A DNA stretch of 64,000 nt, taken from the NCBI RefSeq assembly GCF_009649845.1, contig NZ_WJIE01000001.1:1101054-1165053 (forward strand). The letters are read 5' to 3'. The stretch's first letter is position 1. Each line of letters opens with the position of its first letter. Source of the stretch: Polyangium spumosum (lineage in GTDB: Bacteria; Myxococcota_A; Polyangia; Polyangiales; Polyangiaceae). Made by a program: the position numbers and the translations under genes. Positions 23,771 to 41,089 of this stretch are shown piece by piece. The notes under the pieces were generated by a model. It was given only the letters and a program-made list of their open reading frames with translations, was not told where the DNA came from and ran no database searches.

Positions 23771-26700
23771 TCAAACCTCCGCCGCGAGAGGGATGTCGGA
23801 GGTGGGGCGTTCGAAGAGCGCGCGCAGGACGCGGCCCGTCGCGGTCGCGCGACGCGCCACGACCTCGGGAGATCCTTCGGCCACGACACGACCGCCGCCC
23901 TTGCCGCCCTCGGGCCCGAGCTCGATCACGTGATCGGCGGCGGCGATGACCGCAGGGTGGTGCTCGATGATCAGGAGCGAGTGACCACGCTGGACGAGGC
24001 GATCGAGCACGTTCACGAGGCGCGCGACGTCGGAGAGGTGCAGCCCCGTGGTGGGCTCGTCGAGGACGTAGAGCGTGGGCTTGGCGCGCGTGCCGCTGCA
24101 GAGCTCGTCGGCCAGCTTGAGGCGCTGCGCCTCGCCGCCCGAGAGCGTGTGCGAGCCCTGGCCGAGCCGGAGGTACCCGACGCCGAGATCACACATCGTC
24201 GCGAGGGGCTCCCGGATCTTCGGGTGCGCAGCGAAGAGCTCGGCCGCCTCTTCAGCCGTACGGAGCAGGACATCGCCGATCGACATACCGAGGTAACGCA
24301 CGTCGAGCGTGGCAGGCTCGAAGCGCGTCCCGCCACAAGCCTCGCAGGTCGTGACGACGTCGGGCAAGAACGACATCTCGTGCGAGATGACGCCCTGCCC
24401 TTCACAAACCTCGCAGCGACCGCCCTTGGCGGTGTTGAAGGAGAAACGCGCGGGGTCGTAGCCGCGCATCTTCGCGTCGGGGGTCGCCGCGAAGAGCTTG
24501 CGAACCTCGTCCCAGACGCCGAGGAAGGTGGCGGGGATGGACCGAGGCGTGCGGCCGATGGGGGATTGATCCACGGCGACGGCGCGCGCGAGCGCGGGCG
24601 GCACGTGGAGCGCGTCGTGCGGACCGGGATCGGGACCCGCGAGGCCGAGGGCGCGTCGCACGGCGGGGTAGAGGACGTGACGGACGAGCGTGCTCTTGCC
24701 GGAGCCGGAGACGCCAGCGACGACGGTCATACGCCCGAGGGGCACGCGCAGCGCGTCGACGCGGAGGTTGTGGGCGCGCGCGCCCTCGATCACGAGCTGC
24801 TCGTCAGCAGGGCCGAGCCGCGCGCGGGCCGAGGCGAGCGCGCGCTCGCCGGAGAGGGCCTTCGCGGTGGGTGAGCTCGGCTTGCGCAGCACCTCGGAAG
24901 GAGCACCCTGGGCCACGATCCTGCCGCCGTTGCGGCCGCCGGAGGGGCCGAGATCGATGAGGTAGTCGGCCGCGCGGATGGTGTCCGCGTCGTGCTCGAC
25001 CATGAGGACGGTGCTGCCCATGTTCGCGAGCTTGCGGAGGTTGTCGAGGAGCCGGTGGGTGTCGCGCGGATGCAGGCCGATCGTGGGCTCGTCGAGCACG
25101 TAGAGCGCGCCGGTGAGCCCGCTGCCGAGCTGCGCGGCGAGGCGGAGCCTCTGCATCTCGCCGCCGGAGAGGGTGGCCGCGCGGCGATCGAGCGCGAGAT
25201 ACCCGAGTCCGACCTCCTCGACGAACGCGAGGCGCCGCGCGAGCTCCCGATGCGGAGCCTCCGCGACGAGCGCGCGATCTCCGTCGAAGCGGAGCGACTT
25301 CGCCCACCGCACGGCCTCCGACACGGAGCGCGCCGTGGCCTCGTGATACCGATCGCCCGCGAGGCGCACCGAGCGTGGGACCGGCGCGAGGCGAGAGCCG
25401 CCGCACGCCGTGCACGGCTCGCTCGAGGACGCGGAGACGTCGGCCCCCTCGCTCCCGCCGAGCACGCCCGTCCCCTCGCAGTCCTCGCAGCGGCCTTGCT
25501 TCGTGTTGAAGGAGAACCAGCGCGGATCGAGCTCGGGGACGCCGACGCCGCAACGAGGACAGGTGCGCGTGGTGGAGAGGAGCTCCTCCTGGCCACGCGT
25601 GTTCAGGAGCTTGACCGAGCCCTTGCCGAAGGTGAGCGCGCGGTCGAAGGTGGCGCGATCGAGGGCGTCGAGCTTGCCTTCGTACATCACGAGATCGATC
25701 GAGTGCTCGCGCCGCTTGGCGAGGCGCGGCGGATCATCGGTGCTCGCGCGCGCGCCGTCGACGATCGCCTCCGTGATGCCCGCGCGCGCCGCCGCCGTGA
25801 AGACGTCGAGGTACGTGCCCTTGCGCGCGACGACCGCGGGCGCGAGCAAGGTGCGCGCGCCGCGCGTGGCGACGAGCGCGCGATACACCTCGTCGGGCGC
25901 GCGCGCGGTGATGGGGACGTCGCAGGTGGGGCAGTGCGGCTCGCCCACCTTGGCGAAGAGGAGCCGCAGGTAGTGCGCGATCTCGGTGACGGTCGCGACC
26001 GTGGAGTTCGACCCCGATCGCGTCGTGCGCTGCTCGAGCGCGATCGCGGGGGGCACGCCCGTGACGCGGTCGACGTCGGGGCGCGGCATCGAGGGGAGGA
26101 ACTGACGCGCGTACGGGGTGAGCGTCTCCAGGAAGCGCCGCTGTCCCTCGGCGAAGACGACGTCGAACGCGAGCGTGCTCTTGCCCGATCCGCTCGGGCC
26201 CGTGACGACGACGATCTGGCCGTGCGGGATCGAGGTGCAGACCTCCGCGAGGTTGTGCTCACGCGCGTGGACGATCTCGATCGCGGAAGGCGCGGGCGGG
26301 TAGGACGATCGACGCGCCCCATCGCCGTTTGCCTTGCTCTTTTTGCGCGAGGACGAGGGCGGAGACGATGCTCTGGCGAGGTGCGCCGCGAGCGCTCGCC
26401 CCGTGCGCGTGTCCGTCTGCGCGACCGCCTCGGGCGTGCCCTCGGCGACGATCTGCCCGCCCTCGCTGCCCGCCCCCGGGCCGAGATCCACGACCCAGTC
26501 GGAGGCTGCGATCACGTCGAGATCGTGATCCACGACGATGACGCTCCCGCCGCCGCGCACGAGGTCACGCAGGGCCTGGTTGAGCAGGAGCACCTCCTCG
26601 GCGTGCAGGCCCGCGCTCGGCTCGTCGAGCAAGAAGAGCCCACCCGCCGTTCGTTCGCCGAGCGCGCGCGCGAGCTTGAGCCGCTGCGCCTCGCCGCCGG

Positions 26701-29149
26701 AGAGCGTCGAGAGCGGCTGGCCAAGCGCGAGGTACCCGAGGCCGAGGCGCGCGAGCGGGCCGAGCGCGCGCACGATCGCGGGCTCCCGCGCGAAGACCTC
26801 GAGCGCCTCGTCGATGGAGAGCGCGAGGACGTCAGCCACGGAGCGGCCGTCCACCTTCACCTCGAGCACCTCGTCGCGGAAGCGTCGGCCTTGACAAACC
26901 GGGCAGGTGAGCGAGACGTCGGCGAGGAACTGCATCTCGATCGTCTCGGCGCCCTCCCCCGCGCACGACTCGCAGCGACCGAGCGCGACGTTGAACGAGA
27001 AATGCCCCGCCGTGAGCTGTCGCGCGGCCGCCTCGGGCTGCGCGGCGAACTTCTGGCGGATGCGGTTCCACGCGCCCGTGTACGTCGCGGGGTTGCCACG
27101 CGAGGTGCGCCCGAGCGGCGCTTGATCGACGAGCGTGACGACCTTGATCCCGCTCGTACCTTCGATCTTCTTGTGGACCCCCGCGGGCTCGATGTCCTTG
27201 TAGCCGCGGGCCCGCGCGAGGGAGCGGTAGAGCACGTCCTCCACGAGCGTGCTCTTGCCGGAGCCGCTCGCGCCCGTCACGCACACGACCTGCCCGAGCG
27301 GCAGGCGCACGCTGACGCCTCGCAGGTTGTTCGCGCGCGCCCCCACGATGGAGATCGATCCACGCGGCGCGGGTCGCTCGTCCGCCGCGGCGACGCTCGC
27401 CGCGCCTCGCGCGAGGGCGCGCCCCGTCGGCAGATCGGTCCGCCTCGCGAGCTCCGGCGGCGCGCCGTCGAACACCACGCGCCCGCCTTGCTTGCCCGCG
27501 CCGGGCCCGAGCTCGACGACGCGATCCGCGGCGCGGATCACGAGCGGCTCGTGCTCGATGACGACCACCACGTTGCCGCGCGCCGAGAGCTCGCGCATCG
27601 CCTCGATGAGCGGCGGGATGTCGCTCGGGTGCAGCCCCACCGTCGGCTCGTCGAGCACGAAGAGCGCGCCCGTGAGCGACGTCCCGAGCGCGCCCGTCAA
27701 CGTGACGCGTTGCGCTTCGCCGCCCGAGAGCGTACGCGCTTGCCGATCGAGCGTCAGGTACCCGAGGCCCACGCGCTCGAGGTACGAGAGCCGCTGCTCG
27801 AGCTCCTTCCGCGCGATCTCGCCCTGCCCCGTCGTCGCCTCGAGCCGCGAGAGCAGCGCCCGCGCCTCGCGCAGCTCGAGGCCGTGCCAGCTCGCGAGAT
27901 CGAGCCCGCCGACGCGGTAGAGCAGCGACTCGGGCGAGAGGCGCTTGCCGTCGCAGGTGCCGCACGGATCGTAGGACCGGTAGCGCGCGAGCAGCACGCG
28001 CACGTGCATCTTGTACGTGCGCGTCTCCATCCACTTGAACCACGCGCGCACGCCGGGGTACTTGCCGCCGTGGAAGCTCCCCTCGCCGTCGAGCACCTGT
28101 TCGCGCTGCGCCTCAGTGAGCTCCTTCCACGGCACGTCGAGCGGGACGCCCTTCTTCTCGCAGAACTTGCGCAGGACCTTGCGCTCCCACGACGTGCTCG
28201 ACCCGGTCCACGGTCGGATCGCGCCGCCCTCGAGGGTCTTGTCCTCGTCGGGGACGACCTTGCCCCAGTCGATACCGATCGTCCTGCCAAACCCGCGGCA
28301 CGACGGGCACGCGCCGAGGGGCGACTGGTACGAGAACAGGCCTGGCCGCGCGGCGTCGAAGCTCCGCGCGCACGACGGGCACGCGAGCCCTCGCGGCACG
28401 AGCACGCGCCGGCCAGCCCCGTCCGTGCCCGATCCACCGACGTAAAGGGCGACGCCTCCCTCGGCCCGTTGCCACGCCTCCTCGATCGCGGAGCCGAGGC
28501 GCCGCGCGTCGCGCGTGCCGATCTTCACGCGGTCGACGATCACCTCGACGCCGCCGCCCGAGCCCAGCGCGTCACCCGGACCGACCTCGTCGATGTCGCG
28601 CACCTCGCCGCGCACGAGCAGCCGCCGGTAGCCCGCTTCGAGCAGCGTCTCGCGCACGTCGAGCAGCTCCTCCGTGCCGGCCACGGGGACGCGGTACGTG
28701 ACGAGCGCGGTCGCCCCGCCGTGGCTCTCGACGGCCTTCGACGCAGCCGTCACCGCATCGACGCGGGCCGCCGGGATCTGGCACGTGGGGCACACGGGCG
28801 TGGCCTCGCGGGCGAACAGGGCCGACAGATACGGCTCGAGGTCGGCCATCGTGGCCACCGTGGAGCGCGAGCTCTTCACGGGGGCGCGGCGATCGACGGC
28901 CACGCCCGCGGCGACCGGATCGAGCTCGTCGATGGGCGGCCGCTCGAGCCGCTCCAGGAACTGCCGAGCGTAGGGGCTGAAGCTCTCGACGAAGCGACGT
29001 TGCCCCTCGGAGTAGAGCGTATCGAGCGCGAGGGAGGACTTTCCGGCCCCGGAGACGCCCGTGAAGCAGACGAGCTGCCCGGGCACGAGCTCGAGGTCGA
29101 CGCCCTTCAGGTTGTGGGTCCGCGCGCCGCGGATGCGGATCGGTTGCAT
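23771..29149 (-). CDS. uvrA: Tandem-fused double excinuclease ABC subunit A
   Basis: A single 1792-residue frame containing two complete UvrA units, about 1-925 and 956-1792, joined by a Ser/Lys linker. All four ATPase sites look intact. Walker A motifs occur at about 31 (GVSGAGKSS), 626 (GASGSGKST), 984 (GPSGSGKST) and 1477 (GVSGSGKST), each with an LSGGE signature and a DEP Walker B. Zinc-finger Cys pairs are present in both halves (CPSC/CPSC, CESC/CPVC, CPRC/CEDC, CEVC/CEAC). UvrA normally acts as a dimer of about 940 residues that finds bulky lesions and loads UvrB, so this is effectively a covalent dimer. Chlamydial UvrA has a similar double length. The usual UvrB and UvrC genes are not in the window. 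Confidence 0.96.
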
Positions 29150-31089: not shown

Positions 31090-32613
31090 ATGAAGATCGC
31101 GTCGCGCCCCCGGGTGATCATCCGCCGCTGTCCCACCTACGACGTCGAGCAGATCCGACGCATCGTTCGTGAGGGGCTCGAGGAGCTGGATTTGCGGCCG
31201 CATGGCCGCACGCTCGTCAAGCCGAACTGCGTGGCGTCGGGGCCGTCCTTTCCGCATGCGTATACGCGGCCGGAGTTCCTGGAGGGCGTGCTTCGCGCCT
31301 TGCAGGACCGGGACGACGGCCGCGTCCGGGAGCTCGCCTTGGGCGAGCGCTGCGGCATCACGCTCCCCACGCGCACGACGTTCGAGGGCGCCGAGTACTA
31401 CCCGATGCTCAAGCGCACGGGCGTGAAGCACTACCACTTCGAGGAGGAGCCGCAGGTCGAGATCCGGCTGAAACACGAGAAGCGGCTGCGCGACTACGTG
31501 TTCACGCCGGAGCCCGTCGCGAAGGCCGACTTCTTCGTCAACTGCCCCAAGTTCAAGAGCCACCCCTGGACCACCGTGACGTTCTCCATGAAGAACTACA
31601 TCGGCATCCAGGACGATCGGCATCGCCTCATCGATCACGACCACCGGCTCGACGAGAAGATCGCGGACCTGCAGTACATCGTTCAGCCGCAGTTCATCGC
31701 GATCGACGCCATCGTGGCCGGCGAGGGCCGGATGCTCACGCCCATCCCGCGCAAGCTCGGGCTCGTCATCATGGGCAACTCGCAGGCCGCGTTCGACGCC
31801 CTCTGCTGCCACATCATCGGGGTCGATCCGTACACGGTCGATCACCTCCGCCTCGCCTCCGAGCGCGGGTTCGGCTCGCTCGATCTCGGCTCGATGGACA
31901 TCAGCGGCGACGTGACGCTCGAGGAGGCGCAGGCGCTGGCCAGGGGCTTCAAGGTCGGCCTCGTCCGCGTCGAGAAATACTTCGAGGGCTCGCACATCAC
32001 CGCGTACGCCGGCCCGCCGCCGGAGCCCGAGCGGACCGACTACTGCTGGGGCGGTTGCCCGGGCGCGATGGAGGAGGCCATCGAGATCCTGCGGCTCTAC
32101 GACGAGCAGTGCGACGAGAAGATGCCGCGTATGCACATCGTGTTCGGCGCCTACGACGGCCCGATCGACGCGGCGCCGGGTGAACGTGTCGTGTTCATCG
32201 GCGACTGCGCGAAGTGGTCGGGCAAGCTGCACGGCCGCCTCGTGAACGTCGAGAGCCTCTACAAGGACCGCGCGCAGAAGGACCCGTACCACGCCAAGCA
32301 CGACGACATCTTCGCGAAGATGGTCCACGTGATGCGCAAGTTCGCGACCAGCGATCCGAGCGAGCCGCTGCGCCTCGAGGGCTGCCCCGTCAGCGTGGCC
32401 GAGCAGGTGCTCACGCTCGTCGAGCTCGGCAAGACGAAGAACCCCTACCTGTCGCCCTCGGAGGCCGTGCGCTTCAGCAAGGGTTACCTCGGCTGGCAGG
32501 GCAAGGCGCTCATGAAGCGCATCTCGGGCAAGCCGTACCAGATCCACGGCCCCTGCGAGCGCGGAGAGGCCGCGCCCGAGATCACGGCGCCGCCGGCTCC
32601 GGACGCAGAGTAA
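31090..32613 (+). CDS. DUF362-domain protein
   Basis: A 507-residue cytoplasmic protein with DUF362 features: an early LVKPNCVASGPS, VNCPKFKSHPWTTVTFSMKNYIG, and a central LGLVIMGNSQAAFDALCCHIIGVDP. Many DUF362 proteins carry a 4Fe-4S ferredoxin domain at the C-terminus; here there is no CxxCxxCxxxC motif, only dispersed Cys (CWGGCPG). The family is of unknown biochemical function, often annotated as iron-sulfur or sugar-related. The 3' end overlaps the convergent YceI-like gene by 32 bases. Confidence 0.85.
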   Translation: MKIASRPRVIIRRCPTYDVEQIRRIVREGLEELDLRPHGRTLVKPNCVASGPSFPHAYTRPEFLEGVLRALQDRDDGRVRELALGERCGITLPTRTTFEGAEYYPMLKRTGVKHYHFEEEPQVEIRLKHEKRLRDYVFTPEPVAKADFFVNCPKFKSHPWTTVTFSMKNYIGIQDDRHRLIDHDHRLDEKIADLQYIVQPQFIAIDAIVAGEGRMLTPIPRKLGLVIMGNSQAAFDALCCHIIGVDPYTVDHLRLASERGFGSLDLGSMDISGDVTLEEAQALARGFKVGLVRVEKYFEGSHITAYAGPPPEPERTDYCWGGCPGAMEEAIEILRLYDEQCDEKMPRMHIVFGAYDGPIDAAPGERVVFIGDCAKWSGKLHGRLVNVESLYKDRAQKDPYHAKHDDIFAKMVHVMRKFATSDPSEPLRLEGCPVSVAEQVLTLVELGKTKNPYLSPSEAVRFSKGYLGWQGKALMKRISGKPYQIHGPCERGEAAPEITAPPAPDAE

Positions 32614-33151
32614 TCTCGAACAGCACCTCGACCTCGTCGCGAACCCGAAACGCGCCGAGCGGCCCCTTCACCTCACGAAGGCCGAGCCGCTTCATCGAGA
32701 GCTCGACGCGGCCGGAGACACGCGTACGTCCCGCGTCCTCGGTCACGCGCAACGCGACCGGCAAGGTCGAACGACCGCTCGACACCTCGACCGTGACCTC
32801 CGCGCGATCACGCGACACGCTCGCCGCGCGCACGCGAACCTCCCTCGTCCCCGGGAACACCTCCTCGCGGATCTTCCGCTCGATGTCCGACCGATCCGAG
32901 GTCGAGAGCGCGGACGTGTCGACGCGCTCTCCATGCAAGGTCCCCACGACCGAGAGCGCCGAGACCGGCACGACGAGCTCGCCCACGTACCTCTCGCCGT
33001 CGAGCGTGGCGCGACCGGAGAGCTCGGTGGCCACAAGCTCGAGATCGTGCGCCAAGCGCGCCAGCACCCCGCTCGCGCGGGTCCGGACGAAGAGCTTCGA
33101 TGACGAGCGCTCGACGACCAGCGCGGCGCCGGGCATGACCTGTCCACTCAT
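32582..33151 (-). CDS. YceI-like protein
   Basis: A 189-residue beta-rich protein resembling the YceI lipid-binding barrel family: VERSSSKLFVRTRASGVLARLAHDLELVA at the start, a central VVPVSALSVVG, and the hydrophobic C-terminal strand EVEVLFEITL. Classical YceI is periplasmic with a signal peptide, but none is present here, so it may be cytoplasmic. Its 3' end runs 32 bases into the convergent DUF362 gene. Moderate confidence in the family. Confidence 0.7.
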   Translation of the reverse strand: MSGQVMPGAALVVERSSSKLFVRTRASGVLARLAHDLELVATELSGRATLDGERYVGELVVPVSALSVVGTLHGERVDTSALSTSDRSDIERKIREEVFPGTREVRVRAASVSRDRAEVTVEVSSGRSTLPVALRVTEDAGRTRVSGRVELSMKRLGLREVKGPLGAFRVRDEVEVLFEITLRPEPAAP

Positions 33152-33164
33152 GAATGCGCCTCGC

Positions 33165-33899
33165 TCACTCGCGACATCTTAGCGCCGCCGCCACGGGGAG
33201 CAGCGTCGCCATGAGCAGCAGAGCGATGGAGCCATGTGGCTGCGAGAGGCCGAGCGGGCCCTCTCCGCCGAGCAGCCCGCGCCCGTGCGCGCGAGGCAAG
33301 AGCGCAGCGAAGAGGCCCGCGCCGCTGCCGAAGAGGAAGTCGAGGACGAGCGGCACGACGCGCCCGCGACCGCGCTCGAAGAAAGTCGCGCCAAACGAGA
33401 ACCAGCCTGCGTATGCGGCGCCGACGAGGGCGCCGATCCAGCCGCTCGTGAAGGCATCGCGGGCGAACGGCGGCGCCGAGGGCGACTGCGCGGAAGCGAC
33501 GGCGACGAGCGCGAGCAGCGCGCCACTCACGGCCGAAACGAGCACGAGCGCCACGCCGATCCCGAGCGCGACGTCGCGCCGCGCAGCGCCATACCGCGCG
33601 ACGGGCCAGGCGGCGTCGCGCAACGACGAGCGATCGCAGGCGCGGGCGGCGAGGGCAAAACAGAAGAGCGGGACGACGAGGCGGAACGTCGCGGCGAGCG
33701 AACGATCGACCGCGCCCGCGGTGGTCACGCGACGCTCGATGAGCCCACCTGCGAGCGCGAGCGCGAGCGCGAGCAGGGCGGTGAGCACGACGCCTCGACC
33801 CGCGAGCCTGCGCGCGCCCATCGCGGCCCCGAGCGAGAGACCCACGAACGCGCCCGCGCCGCGAGGTGACGCGGCGTGTGATCGATGTTGCGACGTCAT
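33165..33899 (-). CDS. ABC-transporter-type permease (third gene of operon)
   Basis: A 244-residue integral membrane protein with about six hydrophobic segments (such as VVLTALLALALALAGG, LVVPLFCFALAA, GIGVALVLVSAVSGALLALVAVA, ALLLMATLLPVAAAL). No periplasmic binding loop. Its start ATG overlaps the ATPase-like gene stop by four bases, so it is the last gene of a tight operon. Probably one half of a heterodimeric permease related to ABC-2 type exporters. Substrate unknown. Confidence 0.72.
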   Translation of the reverse strand: MTSQHRSHAASPRGAGAFVGLSLGAAMGARRLAGRGVVLTALLALALALAGGLIERRVTTAGAVDRSLAATFRLVVPLFCFALAARACDRSSLRDAAWPVARYGAARRDVALGIGVALVLVSAVSGALLALVAVASAQSPSAPPFARDAFTSGWIGALVGAAYAGWFSFGATFFERGRGRVVPLVLDFLFGSGAGLFAALLPRAHGRGLLGGEGPLGLSQPHGSIALLLMATLLPVAAALRCRE

Positions 33900-35095
33900 G
33901 CTCCTCCCCGTGGCTCGCCCGGCTCCTCGGCGACGTCGGCGGGCGCGGAAGGCGCAGGCGCCGCTGCAGGTTCGCCAGGTACGGCCTCCAGCGTCGGCGG
34001 CGCGACGGGCGCGACGGCTCCCGGCACCCGCGCGCTCCTCGCCGCAGGGAGCGCGACGAGCGGCCTCTGCGCGAGCCCAGCCGCGCGGCGGAACGTCTGC
34101 AGCGCCTCGGCCGCGGCGCGCACCTGCACGAGCCCAGGCGACGCCGGCGCGACGGCTTCGATCACGACGCCTGCCTCCACCGCTGCGTCGACGAGCGCGA
34201 GCGCACACGCGTCGAGATCGTCCCCGGACAAACGCAGCTCCGCGGCCCGGGGGAGCGAGCCCGGGGCCTCGCTCCAAGCGACCGATCGCACCTCCGTTCG
34301 ATCGGCGAGCAAGCGGGCGAGCGCGCGCACCGGCCCGCGCTCGCCCGCGTCGTCCGCGGGCCGAACCCACGCGACGAGCGCGGGCTCGCTCCCGGGGAGC
34401 GGCTCCGCGGCGTCGGCCTCGCCGAGCACGAGCCCCTTGTGCAGGACGAGCACACGATCCCCGAGCGCGCGCGCGTCCGCAGGCGAGGACGTCGTCACGA
34501 CGACGCACGCGCCGCCGAGCGAGAGCTCCCGGATTCGCTCGCGCACGAGGCCGAGCAGGTTGAGCGCGACGTCGGAGAGCGGCTCGTGCAGCGCCACGAG
34601 CAGCGGCGACGGCGTGGAGAGCGCGAGGGCGAGCTCCACCGCGCGCGCCTCGGCGAACGAGAGGGAGCCCGGCTCGCGGCGCGCGAGATGGCCGAGGCCG
34701 AACGGATCGAGCACGTCGCTCGCGCGCGTCGTCGACTCACCACGCGCCCGCCGCGCGAGCGCCACGGACGCCTCGACCGTACGAGCCTCCGGTAACGTGG
34801 GCTCCGCGGCGAGCGCGCCGATCCTCGCGCGCAGCGGAGACACACGTGCAGGCGACTGCCCTCCGATCGAGACGCGGCCCTGCAAGGGCGCGCGCGCCCC
34901 CGTGATCACCTCGGAGAGCGCGAGCGTGCCGTCCTCGGGCGCACCCACGAAGGCGAAGACCCCCGCGCCGAGCGCGAGGCTCACGCCCGAGAGGCTCCCT
35001 CGAGATGCGCCACGCGGCGCCGCGGCGTCACGCGCGTGAACCGCTTCGAGCAAGAGGCGCGGCGGCGCGGCCATGGGCGGACGCGGCGTCGTCAT
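33896..35095 (-). CDS. ABC-transporter ATPase-like protein with degenerate catalytic motifs
   Basis: A 399-residue protein aligned by eye to an ABC nucleotide-binding domain (about 35-230) followed by a 170-residue C-terminal extension ending in a Pro/Ala-rich tail. The fold pattern is clear (SGVSLALGAGVFAFVG ... RARIGALAAEPTL ... VTTSSPADARALGDRVLVLHKG), but the Walker A Lys is missing (GAPEDGTLAL). The signature LSGGQ is replaced by LSFAEA, the Walker B Asp is replaced by His (LVALHEP), and the switch His is absent (TTSSP). It is unlikely to hydrolyse ATP. It overlaps both flanking permease genes by four bases. Confidence 0.8.
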   Translation of the reverse strand: MTTPRPPMAAPPRLLLEAVHARDAAAPRGASRGSLSGVSLALGAGVFAFVGAPEDGTLALSEVITGARAPLQGRVSIGGQSPARVSPLRARIGALAAEPTLPEARTVEASVALARRARGESTTRASDVLDPFGLGHLARREPGSLSFAEARAVELALALSTPSPLLVALHEPLSDVALNLLGLVRERIRELSLGGACVVVTTSSPADARALGDRVLVLHKGLVLGEADAAEPLPGSEPALVAWVRPADDAGERGPVRALARLLADRTEVRSVAWSEAPGSLPRAAELRLSGDDLDACALALVDAAVEAGVVIEAVAPASPGLVQVRAAAEALQTFRRAAGLAQRPLVALPAARSARVPGAVAPVAPPTLEAVPGEPAAAPAPSAPADVAEEPGEPRGGA

Positions 35096-35829
35096 GCGGG
35101 AGCTCCGCCGCGGCCTGCGGCGACGAGGATCGAGAGCAGCGCGGAGAGCGCGCCCGGGATCGAGTACGAGCCGCGGCCTGCGAGCTCCGCGAGCATCCAG
35201 GGAACGACCACGATCGCCACGAGCAAGACCCTGCCTCGACGACCGCCCAGGCGCGCCGAGAACGCGGCGAGCGTCCCGAGGGTGATGCCGGCGACGGCCG
35301 AGAACGCGAGCAAGCCGAGCGCGAACACGACCCTGCGCAGCGCCATCGATCCGGAGCTCGAGAGCGCGACCGTGACGAGCGCGAGCCCGACGAGCGGCAG
35401 CGCGATCGCCCTCCCGATCTGGAGCATCGACGCGACCCACCGCACCACGTGGAGGCTCCGCGCGCGCAAGCCCCTCGTCGCAGCGAGCGCCTCGATCCCG
35501 GCCTCGCGATCCTCCGCCGTCCGATCGCTCGCAGCGGCGAGCGTCGTCGGGGCCGCGGCCAGGAGCGTGATCGACGCGGCCCCGAGGCCGACGAGCCCTT
35601 CGAGCGGCGCGCTCGTTCCTTCCGTCGCGCGGAGCACGATCGCGAGGGTCGCGAACACCGCGCCGAGCAGCGCGCCGCACGCGAGCCCGGCGCGCGAGAG
35701 GGTCGTACGCCCGAGGCGCGCGCGGGACAGGGCCACCGCGGCGAACAAGCGCCTCCTGCGACGCCCACGAGGCGGCCCGGGAGTGCGGCGCGCGGAGGAC
35801 ACACCGGTGAGGCTCGGAGAAGTCGACAT
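35092..35829 (-). CDS. ABC-transporter-type permease (first gene of operon)
   Basis: A 245-residue membrane protein with a basic N-terminus (RGRRRRRLF) and about six hydrophobic segments (LACGALLGAVFATLAIVL, ASITLLAAAPTTLAAA, ALPLVGLALVTVAL, VVFALGLLAFSAVAGITLG, VLLVAIVVVPWMLAEL). ATG 35829 was chosen; a GTG six bases upstream is possible. Its stop overlaps the start of the ATPase-like gene (ATGA). It likely forms a heterodimer with the other permease. Confidence 0.72.
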   Translation of the reverse strand: MSTSPSLTGVSSARRTPGPPRGRRRRRLFAAVALSRARLGRTTLSRAGLACGALLGAVFATLAIVLRATEGTSAPLEGLVGLGAASITLLAAAPTTLAAASDRTAEDREAGIEALAATRGLRARSLHVVRWVASMLQIGRAIALPLVGLALVTVALSSSGSMALRRVVFALGLLAFSAVAGITLGTLAAFSARLGGRRGRVLLVAIVVVPWMLAELAGRGSYSIPGALSALLSILVAAGRGGAPA

Positions 35830-35927
35830 CGTCACGGCGGCTTCAGGGTGGACACGAGGAGCGGCGACGTTCGCGCGCAGGCATCATGCCCGCTGCCCTT
35901 TCGCGCGGGCGGCGGCAAGGATATCCT

Positions 35928-38417
35928 GTGCGCAGTCCAGTGCTTGACCTGAAAATCCGCCGGGGGCGATGGGCTTCTGTTCTCGGGCTCTTGCTAGCGG
36001 GGGGTGCGCTCGGCGTCGCCTGCACGCCGGACTCCGACATCGATCGGATCACGAGCGGGTCCGGTAGCGGCGCGGGCGGCGCGGGCGGCGACGGCGGCGC
36101 CTCTTCCAGCACGGGCACGGCGAGCAGCTCGAGCAGCGCGTCGTCCGCCTCGTCCAGCGGGAGCGGCGGCGCGGGCGGCGACGGCGGCGCGGGGGGCGCA
36201 GGTGGTGCCGGCGGCGAAGGTGGCGCAGGCGGCGCAGGCGGCGGCCCGGTGAGCAACTGCCCACCCGACGCGGATCTCGACGGCATCTCCGACGACGTCG
36301 AGGGCAAAGCCCAGGGCATCGACACGGACGGCGACGGCACGCCCGACTACCTCGACACGGACAGCGACGACGACTCGTTGCCCGACGCCCTCGAAGGACA
36401 GACGGCCTCCGTCGGCTGCGCGAACCCGCAGAACTCCGACGGCACCGGGCCCCCCGATTTCCGCGACACGGACAGCGACGACAACGGCCTGCCCGACGCG
36501 CTCGAGATCTACCCCGACCAGACGCCCTACGATCCGCAGAAGCCCGCGCCGAACCCCGCGGACACCGACGGCGACAACATCCCCGACTACGCAGACCCGG
36601 ACAACGACGACGACTCGTTGCCGGACACCGTCGAGCTCACCATGGGCGTCGCCACCGACACGGACGGCGACGGTCTGCCGGATCTGTCCGACGCCGACAG
36701 CGACGGCGACACGCTCGGCGACGCCTTCGAAGGGCTCGCGGATCCCGACGGAGACAACGTGCCCGCGTTCCGTGACGACGACAGCGACGCGGATGGGCTC
36801 TCCGACCTGTGCGAGGCCGGGCCCATGCACATGGTCTCGCAGCCGCCGCCCGACGCCGACAGCGATGGCAAGTACGACTTCCTCGACCTCGACACCGACG
36901 CAGACGGCATCCTGGACAAGGACGAGGACCAGAACCTCGACTGCGTACTCGACCCGCTCGAGACCGATCGCACGAAGGCCGACACGGACGGCGACGGCAC
37001 CACCGATCTGATCGAGCGCGAGCTCGGCTCGGACCCGCGCGATCCGTTCGTCACGCCCGGCACGCTCGGCAAGTTCTACTTCGTGTTGCCCTACCTCGGC
37101 GCGCCCTCGCCGGCCGAGAACATCGTTCCGCTTCGTACGAACTTGAACCAGGGCGACGTCGCCTTCCTCGTCGACACGACCGCGACGATGGGCGGCGAGA
37201 TCCAGAACCTCAAGAACAACCTCCCCGCGATCATCACCAAGCTGAAGGCGTCGATCCCCGATCTCGCCGTGGGCATCGCCGGCTTCGACGACTTCCCGAC
37301 GGGCACGTACGGCACCGTGGGCGTCGATCAGCCCTTCTACGTCGCAGGCACCACCGGCTACGTGAGCACCACCCTCGCCGACAACCTCGGCGCCGTGTTC
37401 GCCCTCAACGTGCACGACGGCGGCGACAAACCCGAGTCGCACGTCGCCGCCATGTACCGCGCGCTCACCGACGCCTACCTCCTCTGGCCCACCGGTCAGC
37501 TCGCGCCCGCGGGCGCGCCGAGCGGGCGTTATGGAACGCTCCGCTTCCGCGAAGGCGCGCTGCCGATCCTCGTGCCGATCACCGACGCTCCGTTCCACAA
37601 CGGCAGGCGCGCCCTCGACCCGAGCATCCTCCACGATCCCTACGACTTCAACGGACAGGCCCCCTTCCCCACGCCCACGGTCGACACGCTCGTCACCACG
37701 ATGAAGGAGAAGGGCGCAAGGATCATCGGCATCTCCGCGTCGGACGGCGTCCGCACCGGCGGCGATCCTTACGAAGACCTCGCGTACCTCGTCGATCAGA
37801 CCGGCTCGCTCGTCCCGCCCTCCGCGTTCGGCGGGCTTCAATGCGGGACGGCGATCGCGGGCGGCTTCATCACGCCGGACGGCCCCGCCAACGCCGACAA
37901 CCCCGGCGGGACGTGCCGCCTGATCTTCGACATCAGCACCGACGGCACCGGGCTCAACGACGCCACGCTCGACAAGGGGATCACGGCCCTCCTCAAGGCG
38001 ATCCGCTTCGACATCCGCGCCCTCGCCGCGCCGAACCTCGCCGATCCCATCGACGCCGTGGACACGTTCATCGCGCAGATCTCCGTCAACGCGCCGGGCG
38101 GCGACGACGCGGCCGAGCCCGGCGTCCCGTGCTTCTCGCTGAACGCCGTCCAGCAGCTCAAGGACGTCTGGTCGGGCGCGAAGGGCCTCGTGAAGGCGCA
38201 GGACGGCGTCAACGAGACCGCCCTCGGGATCATCCCTGGTCAGAAGATCTGCTTCAAGATCGTGCCCAAGCCGAACACGACGTTCCCGCAGAACGCCTCC
38301 GCGCAGATCTTCAAGGCCACGCTCACGGTCAAGGCGCAGAACGGCATCGCGCCCTCGGAGCTCTTGCTCGGCGCGCCGCGCGAGATCCTCTTCCTCGTCC
38401 CGCCCGCGCCGCAGTGA
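35928..38417 (+). CDS. Lipoprotein with calcium-binding repeats and von Willebrand factor A domain
   Basis: An 829-residue surface lipoprotein (lipobox GALGVAC, Cys near residue 32). A Gly/Ala/Ser linker (about 43-105) is followed by about ten thrombospondin type-3-like repeats (DTDGDGTPDYLDTDSDDD and variants, about 115-375) that should bind many calcium ions. A VWA domain starts near 415 with a MIDAS-like DTTATM. The C-terminal region continues from about 660. These features suggest a calcium-dependent adhesin. GTG 35928 is preceded by AAGGA six bases upstream, whereas ATG 35886 would put extra residues before the signal peptide. It is monocistronic. Confidence 0.85.
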   Translation: MRSPVLDLKIRRGRWASVLGLLLAGGALGVACTPDSDIDRITSGSGSGAGGAGGDGGASSSTGTASSSSSASSASSSGSGGAGGDGGAGGAGGAGGEGGAGGAGGGPVSNCPPDADLDGISDDVEGKAQGIDTDGDGTPDYLDTDSDDDSLPDALEGQTASVGCANPQNSDGTGPPDFRDTDSDDNGLPDALEIYPDQTPYDPQKPAPNPADTDGDNIPDYADPDNDDDSLPDTVELTMGVATDTDGDGLPDLSDADSDGDTLGDAFEGLADPDGDNVPAFRDDDSDADGLSDLCEAGPMHMVSQPPPDADSDGKYDFLDLDTDADGILDKDEDQNLDCVLDPLETDRTKADTDGDGTTDLIERELGSDPRDPFVTPGTLGKFYFVLPYLGAPSPAENIVPLRTNLNQGDVAFLVDTTATMGGEIQNLKNNLPAIITKLKASIPDLAVGIAGFDDFPTGTYGTVGVDQPFYVAGTTGYVSTTLADNLGAVFALNVHDGGDKPESHVAAMYRALTDAYLLWPTGQLAPAGAPSGRYGTLRFREGALPILVPITDAPFHNGRRALDPSILHDPYDFNGQAPFPTPTVDTLVTTMKEKGARIIGISASDGVRTGGDPYEDLAYLVDQTGSLVPPSAFGGLQCGTAIAGGFITPDGPANADNPGGTCRLIFDISTDGTGLNDATLDKGITALLKAIRFDIRALAAPNLADPIDAVDTFIAQISVNAPGGDDAAEPGVPCFSLNAVQQLKDVWSGAKGLVKAQDGVNETALGIIPGQKICFKIVPKPNTTFPQNASAQIFKATLTVKAQNGIAPSELLLGAPREILFLVPPAPQ

Positions 38418-38420
38418 CGG

Positions 38421-39602
38421 TCACCAGGTGGGCTCCTTCTTGCCCTTGCGCTTCTTCTTGCGCTCCTTGTTCCCGATCCCGATCTTCCCCCACTCGTACG
38501 AGACGCGCTTGCGGAACGCGCCGTTGTCGTCGCCTCCGTAGACGAAGAGCTCGCGCGCCGTCTCGGTCTCGCCCACCGTCGGCTGCCAGCGCTCCGTGGG
38601 CACGAAGGCCATCGAGACCGGCGCGTCGAAGCGCATGCGCGCCACGACGACCCCGCACCTCGCGCGACCCGAGGCCTTCGCGCAGCCGCCGCCGAGCACG
38701 AGCTCCTCGTTGCCGAGCGGGTGCCACGTCCAGATTCGTTCGACCTTGAAGGGATGGTCGGCCTTGCGCGTCACCGCCTCGCGGATCTCCTCCGGCACGA
38801 GCGGCTCGAGCGCCTGCGCGAGATCGGCCTTCGCGTCCGCGGGCTGGAACGTGAGCGGCGCGCCTCGGCTCACGTTGAGCACCACCTCGAAGCTGTTGGG
38901 CTCGCCCGCGCAGCAGCGGAAGCCCACGTCGGCGCGGCGCACGTCGACCTTCATGCCGCGGCCATTCGCGCACCTGCCGACGAGCTCACCTTGTGGCGCG
39001 TTCCCGCCGCGGGTCGTCCCGAGGTTCGCCTTGCTCGCATCGCGCTTCCACTGGCTCGACGTCCACTGCCACACGCCTCCGTGCAGATCGTGGACGCCGA
39101 ACGCGCTCTTGCAGCCCGCGTTCACGCCGTTCGGCACGAGCGTACGCATCGAGCCCGTCGTGCACGTCGCGGCCTTGTACGCGTCGCCGTACGGGTACGC
39201 CGTATTCTGCGGCCCCTTGCAGGCGCGCTCCCACTCGAGCTCCGTGCAGAGCCGCTTCTGCTGCGCCGCGCAGAGCCCTTCGGCCTCGGCCTGCGTCACG
39301 TTCGTCGTGGGGATCGCGCCGGGCTCGTTCGGGTACGGGAACAGGTCGATGTAGAAGCCCGTCATCACGACCTGCTCGCCCGCCATCTCCTCGTCGGGGA
39401 CACGCGGCAGCTTCTCGGGCGGCGTGCCCGCGATGAGCGAGCCGGGCGGGATCCAGGCCATCCCCGGGCGGGGATCGGGCTCTCGATCCGCCGTCACCCA
39501 CGGGGGCTCGGCCTCGTCGCCCGCGTCGGTCGGCTCGGGGGCGAGCCTCTTGCCTTGGCATCCGATCGCGAGCGCGGCGACGGCGACGAGGACCTTCTTC
39601 AC
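38421..39602 (-). CDS. Formylglycine-generating-enzyme-like (SUMF1) lipoprotein
   Basis: A 393-residue protein with a lipoprotein signal (VAALAIGC, Cys15). The FGE-sulfatase-like domain (about 46-250) shows [58 protein letters not shown], and ADVGFRCC. True FGE oxidises a sulfatase Cys to formylglycine in the cytoplasm or ER; here the location is extracytoplasmic and the sequence ends in about 140 unrelated residues with a very basic tail ([15 protein letters not shown]). A C-type-lectin-like binding or scaffold role is therefore as likely as enzymatic activity. The GTG start overlaps the upstream regulator's stop (GTGA). Confidence 0.85.
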
Positions 39603-41089
39603 GTCGGCTCGTGCTCGCGCTCCCGGAGCCCCAGCTCCTTCATCTTGAGCTGCAGGCCCTTGCGCGAGATTTTGAGCAGCCGCGCCGCGTGCGTCACGTT
39701 GCCCTGCGTCTGCTTGAGCGCGCGCACGATGAGGTCTCGCTCGAGCCGGCTCATCGCCGCCTTGACCTGCTCCTTCAGGCCGTCGGAGAGCGCTGCCGCG
39801 TCGCCTTGTTGCGGATCGGGCGACGACGGCGACGGCGCGCGCGCTCCCTCCGCGGCGGAGGGCGCGCTCGCCGAGAGGGCGCTCGCTTGCGAGGCGTTCG
39901 AACGCACCTCCTCCGAGAGATCCTCGAGCCGGATGCGGGCGCCGTCCGCGAAGAGCACGGCCCGCTCGATCACGTTCTCGAGCTCGCGGATGTTCCCCGG
40001 CCAGCCGTAGGCCGAGAGACGCTCGAGCGCGTCCGGCTCGACGCCCTCGATGTTCTTGCGCAGGCGCGCGTTGAACTTCGCGATGAAGTACGACACGAGC
40101 GGCGGGATGTCGGTCCTGCGCTCGCGCAGCGCGGGCAGCGCGATCGACACCACGTTGAGCCGGTAGAAGAGATCCTCGCGGAACGATCCTGCGCCGATCT
40201 CGCGCTTGAGGTCGCGGTTCGTCGCGGCGACGAGCCGCACGTCGACGCGGATCGTCTTGATGCCGCCCACGCGCTCGAACTCGCTCTCCTGGAGCACGCG
40301 CAGGAGCTTCACCTGCATCTCGTTCGGGATCTCGCCGATCTCGTCGAGGAAGAGCGTCCCGCCCGACGCGAGCTCGAAGCGGCCCGGCTTCGACGCGACC
40401 GCGCCCGTGAACGCGCCTCGCTCGTAGCCGAAGAGCTCCGACTCCATCAGGTCCTTCGGGATCGCGGCGCAGTTCACCTTGATGAACGGCCTGTCGCGGC
40501 GGCTCGAGTTCTCGTGCAGCGCCCGCGCCACGAGCTCCTTGCCCGTCCCGCTCTCGCCCGTGATGAGCACCGTCGTGGGCGTGTCCGCGACGCGCTCGAT
40601 GATCGAGTAGAGCTCGTGGATCGGCTGGCTCTCGCCGATGATCCCGAAGCGCGCCGTGCCCTCGCGCGGCAAGGCCGACACGGCGACGTCGCGCGACGCG
40701 TCGGCGCTCGCGAGGTCACGCGTGCGCAGCGCCTTGCGGACCACGAGGCGCACCTCGTGCTGGTCGAAGGGCTTCGTGATGTAGTCGAAGGCGCCGGTCT
40801 TCAGGGCCTCGACGGCGTTGTCGACCGTCCCGTGCGCCGTCAACATGACCACGGGGCGCGTCGGATCGTCCCGCATGGCGGCGCGGAGCAGATCCATCCC
40901 ATCCACCTTGGGCATCCGGAGGTCGGTGATCACGAGGTCGATGTGGTGCTCCTTGAGGAAGGCGAGGGCTTCCTCCCCGTCCTCGGCGGTGTGCACCTCG
41001 TAGCCGTCCCGACCGAGCTGCGCGCTGAGCACGCGGCGCAGGTTGGCCTCGTCGTCCACGACCAGGATCTGCTTCTTTTCGGGTAGCAC
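39599..41089 (-). CDS. NtrC-family sigma-54-dependent response regulator
   Basis: A 496-residue activator. Receiver domain 5-120: acidic pocket Asp12-Asp13, phospho-acceptor Asp56 (ITDLRMP) and Lys106 (YITKPFD). AAA+ domain with Walker A GESGTGKE (178-185), sigma-54 contact loop GAFTGA (225-230) and Walker B LFLDE. A Fis-type helix-turn-helix lies at the end ([25 protein letters not shown]). All key residues are intact. No sensor kinase adjoins, so it is an orphan regulator. It is translationally coupled to the FGE-like lipoprotein behind it. Target promoters are not identifiable here. Confidence 0.96.

Follow-up and report, generated by a model that had tools for sequence, protein, structure and literature searches.

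ATP-binding cassette (ABC) transporters are defined by ATP, and TAP and BmrCD are among the ABC exporters in which one site is degenerate. The degenerate exporters TM287/288, TmrAB and MRP1 are described in a review as keeping one working site (PMC7756269). Here we describe a locus from a stretch of 64,000 nucleotides of Polyangium spumosum DNA (assembly GCF_009649845.1, contig NZ_WJIE01000001.1, positions 1,101,054 to 1,165,053 of the forward strand), hereafter the window, in whose own numbering the coordinates below are given. At 33165-35829 on the minus strand the window encodes a permease, an ABC ATPase-like protein and a second permease, which by genome searches make up a genuine pseudo-ABC operon that the Polyangiaceae conserve in single copy. 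Its middle protein, P0002, looks catalytically dead, and the case against ATP use that can be made from its sequence is strong.

Results

The operon consists of permease 1 (P0003, 245 amino acids, 35092..35829), the ABC ATPase-like protein, which lacks the nucleotide motifs (P0002, 399 amino acids, 33896..35095), and permease 2 (P0001, 244 amino acids, 33165..33899), all on the minus strand. The stop of permease 1 overlaps the start of the ATPase-like gene by four bases (35092..35095), and the stop of the latter overlaps the start of permease 2 likewise (33896..33899), exactly as a sequence-only reading of the window had placed a permease-ATPase-permease operon with four-base junctions. The assignment of P0002 rests on sequence, Pfam, alignment and a structural model, that of permease 1 on a family profile that also hits the permease encoded ahead of the intact ATPase in related operons, and that of permease 2 on a predicted NosY-like ABC-2 fold (predicted local distance difference test, pLDDT, 94). 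If the start codon closest to the stop is taken, a spacing of -4 recurs in 40 of the 63 family loci in which the first junction was measurable and in 45 of 71 for the second. In 69/76 family loci the three genes follow one another as permease 1, ATPase and permease 2 on a single strand, and the remaining seven loci end at contig edges.

P0002 is recognised as an ABC ATPase by the Pfam model PF00005 (33.2 bits against a cut-off of 25). Its pseudo-Walker A (residues 51-60, 34916..34945, minus strand as for all features of P0002) reads G-A-P-E-D-G-T-L-A-L, with Thr57 at the position of the Lys and a newly conserved Asp55, and does not fit the pattern GxxGxGK[ST]. The pseudo-signature (residues 145-153, 34637..34663) is L-S-F-A-E, without the second Gly of an LSGGQ-like motif, and carries the newly conserved Glu149 and Arg151. 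In the pseudo-Walker B (residues 170-172, 34580..34588), which reads L-H-E-P, His170 replaces the Asp of the Asp and Glu pair while the catalytic Glu171 is kept along with Pro172, and in the pseudo-switch (residues 201-205, 34481..34495) the His is replaced by Ser203, next to a newly conserved Ser204. The A-loop aromatic residue and the D-loop Asp are absent as well. The losses of the Walker A Lys, the signature, the Walker B Asp and the switch His had all been read correctly from the sequence alone, the retained Glu171 having gone unmentioned. The C-terminal domain (residues 240-339, 34079..34378) is reached by an alignment to NosF that extends to residue 321.

No Pfam model matched permease 1 and no NCBIfam model matched either permease at E 1, while permease 2 hit a single Pfam model far under its cut-off; the Pfam ABC2_membrane models were unmatched at E 0.1 in every one of the 20 members scanned per permease family. 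Each permease is devoid of lysine, and P0002 contains one in its 399 residues. Avoidance of lysine at high GC was considered as the cause of the Lys loss and was rejected: composition does not explain it, because intact relatives and paralogues in the same genome retain the Walker A Lys.

A search with P0002 as a single protein gave matches in 18 of 59 genomes, including its own and all five others of the genus. With a profile built from 14 homologues, matches were found in 75 of the 108 family genomes (own included), a single one in each except for one gene split across two contigs. Among 18 named loci, the 14 of myxobacterial or deltaproteobacterial origin were without Walker A (L034 among them misses that part of the gene), and the remaining four, from other groups, were ordinary ABC proteins. 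As a choice of homologues through the ATPase profile would lean towards the degenerate state, we also searched with permease 2 alone, which was present in 86/108 family genomes in one copy each. The ATPase was readable in 83 of these 86 (one of them in its C-terminal part only), and none was intact or had the Walker A Lys; the sequence-only reading had held that intact homologues would make this just a decaying gene, and the family does not bear that out. The permease 2 search added eight family genomes with a readable ATPase (L168 and L171-L177, with the C-terminal part only in L175), all degenerate and most among those listed even more degenerate. No ATPase match was obtained in G066 and G111 (L170 and L190), where the loci lie at contig ends. 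Absences in the genome searches are not absolute, since scoring was confined to the top candidates from a loose first pass (12 to 31 per genome, and five in one search).

The extent of the loss was determined in an alignment of 80 degenerate family rows, six of them near-copies from Polyangium, against 30 intact rows (28 from 20 loci outside the family and two from the family genome G128), with rows shorter than about 180 residues omitted. The Walker A Lys occurs in 0/78 degenerate rows that reach its position and the switch His in 0/80, against 30/30 intact rows for both; the loss is thus no accident of a single sequence or of chance, and the comparison that had been proposed as a check finds it conserved. 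The Walker B Asp is present in eight of 80 degenerate rows and the second Gly of the signature in ten of 80, again against 30/30, and the D-loop Asp in 14/76 against 29/30. At the A-loop, 56 listed of 57 degenerate rows have no Tyr, Phe or Trp, while Tyr or Phe stands there in all 30 intact rows. Counted row by row, 68 degenerate rows keep a single catalytic residue out of K, D, E and H, eight keep two and four keep none.

The old ATP site has in turn acquired conserved residues of its own. Pro172 and Glu171 are the most conserved family positions of P0002. Among the positions conserved in the family and different in the intact set are Asp55 of the P-loop, two residues of the signature helix (Glu149 and Arg151) and Ser204, which follows the switch. 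The P-loop is acidic, with Asp at position 5 in 67/82 rows and Glu or Asp at position 4 in 36/82, which argues against phosphate binding; from the 82-row motif count one row had been dropped by a GKS filter, namely an additional ABC ATPase of L131, which is MlaF-like and has its Walker A intact.

The closest relatives outside the family (20 loci fetched, L148-L167) carry a canonical ATPase between two permeases in every case, and their downstream permease, if the nearest start codon is taken, starts four bases before the end of the ATPase in 19/20. The iterated family profile of permease 1 matches the upstream permease of these intact operons in 20/20, a count that is partly self-included as the iteration drew on a set containing the outside loci. 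Profile-profile comparison, in which 18 and 19 of the 20 permeases from outside were included, matched permease 1 of the family to its counterpart in the intact operons at E 1.2e-10 and permease 2 to its own counterpart at E 2.4e-7, the cross pairs being weaker (E 0.0018 and 0.015). Within the intact operons the two permeases are alike (E 3.3e-12), whereas those of the degenerate family are not (E 0.017).

Profile matches to an ATPase of the intact type (E 1e-65 or better) were obtained in 32 of the order's 75 other genomes and in one of the family's 108. That one genome, G128 (L189), holds the pseudo-operon plus an intact operon of a two-ATPase type, which counts against a simple picture and perhaps reflects transfer, retention or contamination. 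Outside the family, permease 2 was matched in 1/75 genomes of the order, G461 (L188, another family), with a very degenerate ATPase. In a tree of 74 sequences, made by a quick method from 31 hand-picked of 72 pseudo sequences and 43 others, the degenerate proteins form one group with a Shimodaira-Hasegawa-like approximate likelihood ratio test (SH-aLRT) support of 99, which is still 99 after removal of 39 motif columns; therefore one origin suffices. The same tree gives this group no firm sister among the intact groups. The loss of ATP would have happened once, in an ancestor of the Polyangiaceae.

Ratios of non-synonymous to synonymous substitution rates (dN/dS) were calculated for six Polyangium genomes by the Nei-Gojobori method with our own script on profile-bounded stretches. 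They were 0.19 for the ATPase and 0.23 and 0.24 for the permeases, as compared to 0.22 to 0.29 for four neighbour genes (one of them in five genomes only), a DUF362 neighbour having 0.22. Judged by its coding sequences, the operon is retained by purifying selection and is not decaying.

The AlphaFold model of P0002 (18 sequences) shows an ABC core, with block pLDDT mostly 86-96 and one block at 81, followed by the C-terminal domain and a disordered tail. Its best matches in the Protein Data Bank (PDB) were CbiO and NosF. Against CbiO it gave a Foldseek E value of 4e-15 and, in structural comparison, a Z score of 24.2 with a root-mean-square deviation (rmsd) of 2.5 over 221 residues, so that fold and PF00005 homology both place P0002 among ABC domains. 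Against NosF the Z score was 22.5 over 276 residues (rmsd 8.1), and the alignment extends into the C-terminal domain. The permease 2 model aligned to NosY with Z 17.8 and rmsd 3.1 over 218 residues and to ABCG membrane domains with Z up to 16.9. Among the fold-search matches listed, those of P0002 were ordinary ABC domains and those at the top for permease 2 were ABC-2 permeases; of the two permeases, permease 2 was modelled, and its model predicts an ABC-2 membrane fold. Going by these models, P0002 still looks like an ABC domain of the NosF kind and permease 2 looks NosY-like. With a NosF-like ABC protein and a NosY- or ABCG-like permease, the parts therefore look like those of an ABC-2 transporter.

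Thirteen bases after permease 2 lies a gene for 189 amino acids (32582..33151, minus strand), with a homologue in the fetched stretch of 22/76 family loci. Its product has no sequence match in Pfam, NCBIfam or the PDB; it looks YceI-like, a label that no library supports, and the gene is at most a lineage-specific companion of the operon. A cluster holding a sigma-54 response regulator is found in 40/76 family loci at variable distance, other neighbours being rarer. In the window, a gene with an FGE-sulfatase domain (SUMF1-type; 38421-41089, minus strand) stands directly downstream of the sigma-54 response regulator, and a divergent protein of 843 amino acids is encoded at 35886-38417 on the plus strand. 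This protein has repeats rich in Asp and a von Willebrand A match that stays below threshold, and some other genomes of the family have homologues of it close to the operon. Further away, an open frame of 1792 amino acids (23771-29149, minus strand) resembles, by eye, two UvrA proteins fused head to tail. In another stretch, L222:4201-5304 (minus strand) encodes an intact ABC-2-type ATPase with no recognisable permease within about 4 kb; it is present in 97/108 family genomes and adjoins a gene resembling, by eye, a sigma-54 response regulator.

Discussion

We put at roughly 0.6 the probability that an ABC-2 transporter of the NosFY/Gld type has lost its ATP drive in this family and has been kept as an ATP-independent membrane complex. 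A fuller version, for which the odds look even, is that the transporter gave up ATP once in an ancestor of the Polyangiaceae, that a conserved protein lock (Asp55, Glu149, Arg151, Glu171 and Ser204) replaces the ATP-sandwich interface, and that the permeases diverged past recognition by Pfam, leaving a pseudo-ABC transporter in which neither site is fuelled. The ATPase would have lost nucleotide binding in that ancestor and would then have been retained as a structural part. The two permeases may together form a single membrane domain on which two pseudo-ATPase subunits sit as a cap, and protein contacts, for which the five residues of the lock are the candidates, may now hold the old ATP interface. 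ABC dimers generally place the P-loop of each subunit opposite the signature of its partner. Asp55 and Arg151 could therefore connect the two halves of the dimer, and a bridge from Asp55 to Arg151 of the partner subunit is perhaps part of the interface. The cap might act as a fixed or regulated lid or as a scaffold, and the complex would serve as a conduit, passive or gated, or as a platform for assembly, in place of an ATP-driven pump.

Several observations weigh against this explanation. The catalytic Glu is retained in 76 of 80 degenerate rows, with Asp in the other four, which is odd for a site without any chemistry. The match of the permease 2 model to NosY reaches only E 0.012 in Foldseek, and mostly helical models commonly obtain Z 14 from a shared arrangement of helices, although permease 2 scores above that. 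One family genome, G016 (L169), has both permeases and no recognised ATPase, and 22/108 family genomes, some of them more than 95% complete, have no match to permease 2, so some members of the family can do without the module. The stoichiometry and the formation of a complex by the three proteins are assumed. Beyond the trio, 40 of 76 family loci is the most that any gene reaches in the clustered neighbourhoods, and hence no function is indicated.

The retained Glu is also the starting point for a different reading, in which the site is a non-hydrolytic sensor that binds a nucleotide or another phosphate ligand in a new way, through Glu171 and the new residues, and gates the membrane part. The strong conservation of Pro172 and Glu171 and the fixation of Asp55, Glu149, Arg151 and Ser204 at the old site would suit such a sensor, but an acidic P-loop without the Lys or an A-loop aromatic is a poor place for phosphate or adenine, and we regard this reading as unlikely. 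Decay of the gene, or an artefact of annotation, is highly improbable. Decay would begin with the loss of catalytic motifs, and nine of the 76 profile matches cross an in-frame stop; the other 67 are free of stops, and the dN/dS of 0.19, the gene order kept in 69/76 loci (the seven others being cut by contig ends) and the single tree group contradict it. Decay of the operon was accordingly rejected at the sequence level.

The energy could also come from outside, if the pseudo-ATPase paired with an intact ABC ATPase from another locus. ABC pairs of which one half is degenerate are familiar (PMC7756269), and among the 13 ATPases of the genome most like those of the intact relatives (E 2.3e-34 or better) two, L193 and L204, are orphans, with no open reading frame (ORF) of at least three transmembrane windows within about 4 kb on either side. 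The other 11 of the 13 have a membrane-like ORF within 1.5 kb, the membrane calls for all 13 coming from a crude test of hydropathy. One working site persists in the known pairs, whereas P0002 has lost both half-sites, the Walker A and B motifs and the signature, in the same protein, and therefore even a mixed dimer would miss one half of each site. The orphan L193, present in 97/108 family genomes, does not track the operon, occurring in 78/86 genomes with permease 2 and in 19/22 without it, and in the clustered family neighbourhoods no second ATPase regularly adjoins the operon. We consider such pairing of P0002 with a partner ATPase from elsewhere improbable and so far unsupported. Of the interpretation offered by the sequence-only reading, the dead-looking ATPase, the intact overlapping operon and its selective retention thus hold at the level of sequence, while the heteromer that it proposed finds no specific support in the distribution of these ATPases.

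Literature searches on degenerate, pseudo- or inactive ABC ATPases returned no description of such a family among the matches listed, subscription literature being mostly outside their coverage. In a review of pseudoenzymes (PMC10211241) the terms ABC, ATPase or Walker occur only in one reference title, and in a survey of Myxococcus ABC proteins (PMC4103005) the terms Walker, ABC-2, degenerate and inactive are absent. If the loss of ATP drive is true, a single-copy operon that is selected across a family and whose only encoded ATPase lacks both half-sites would be a natural test of an ABC scaffold without fuel and of the way in which a motor turns into a structural part. The relatives in sister families, with their identical gene order, make the transition directly comparable.

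Comparison with described systems

The exporters TM287/288, TmrAB and MRP1 resemble P0002 in that ATP motifs are lost and the fold is kept; they retain one consensus site, whereas here the sole ATPase-like subunit of the operon has lost both half-sites. In NosDFY, the fold of NosF is like that predicted for P0002, including part of the C-terminal domain, and the fold of NosY is like that predicted for permease 2, but the NosDFY structures carry ATP or AMPPNP according to their PDB titles and P0002 has lost the ATP motifs. A resemblance to the gliding-associated GldA/GldF system is seen in the intact relative L148, whose ATPase matches GldA (E 4.3e-52) and whose permease 2 matches GldF (E 6.1e-6), both under the curated cut-offs; unlike that permease, those of 33165-35829 match no NCBIfam model at E 1. 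The nearest counterparts are the intact operons of the sister families, with an ATPase of the GldA/DrrA type. Their permeases were recognised by the Pfam ABC2_membrane models in both loci scanned (L148 and L152), whereas the permeases here are not. They share with this locus the order of the genes, positional homology of all three proteins and, in 19/20, the four-base overlap of ATPase and permease 2, and they differ from it in their ATPase, which is canonical in 20/20 of them and degenerate here.

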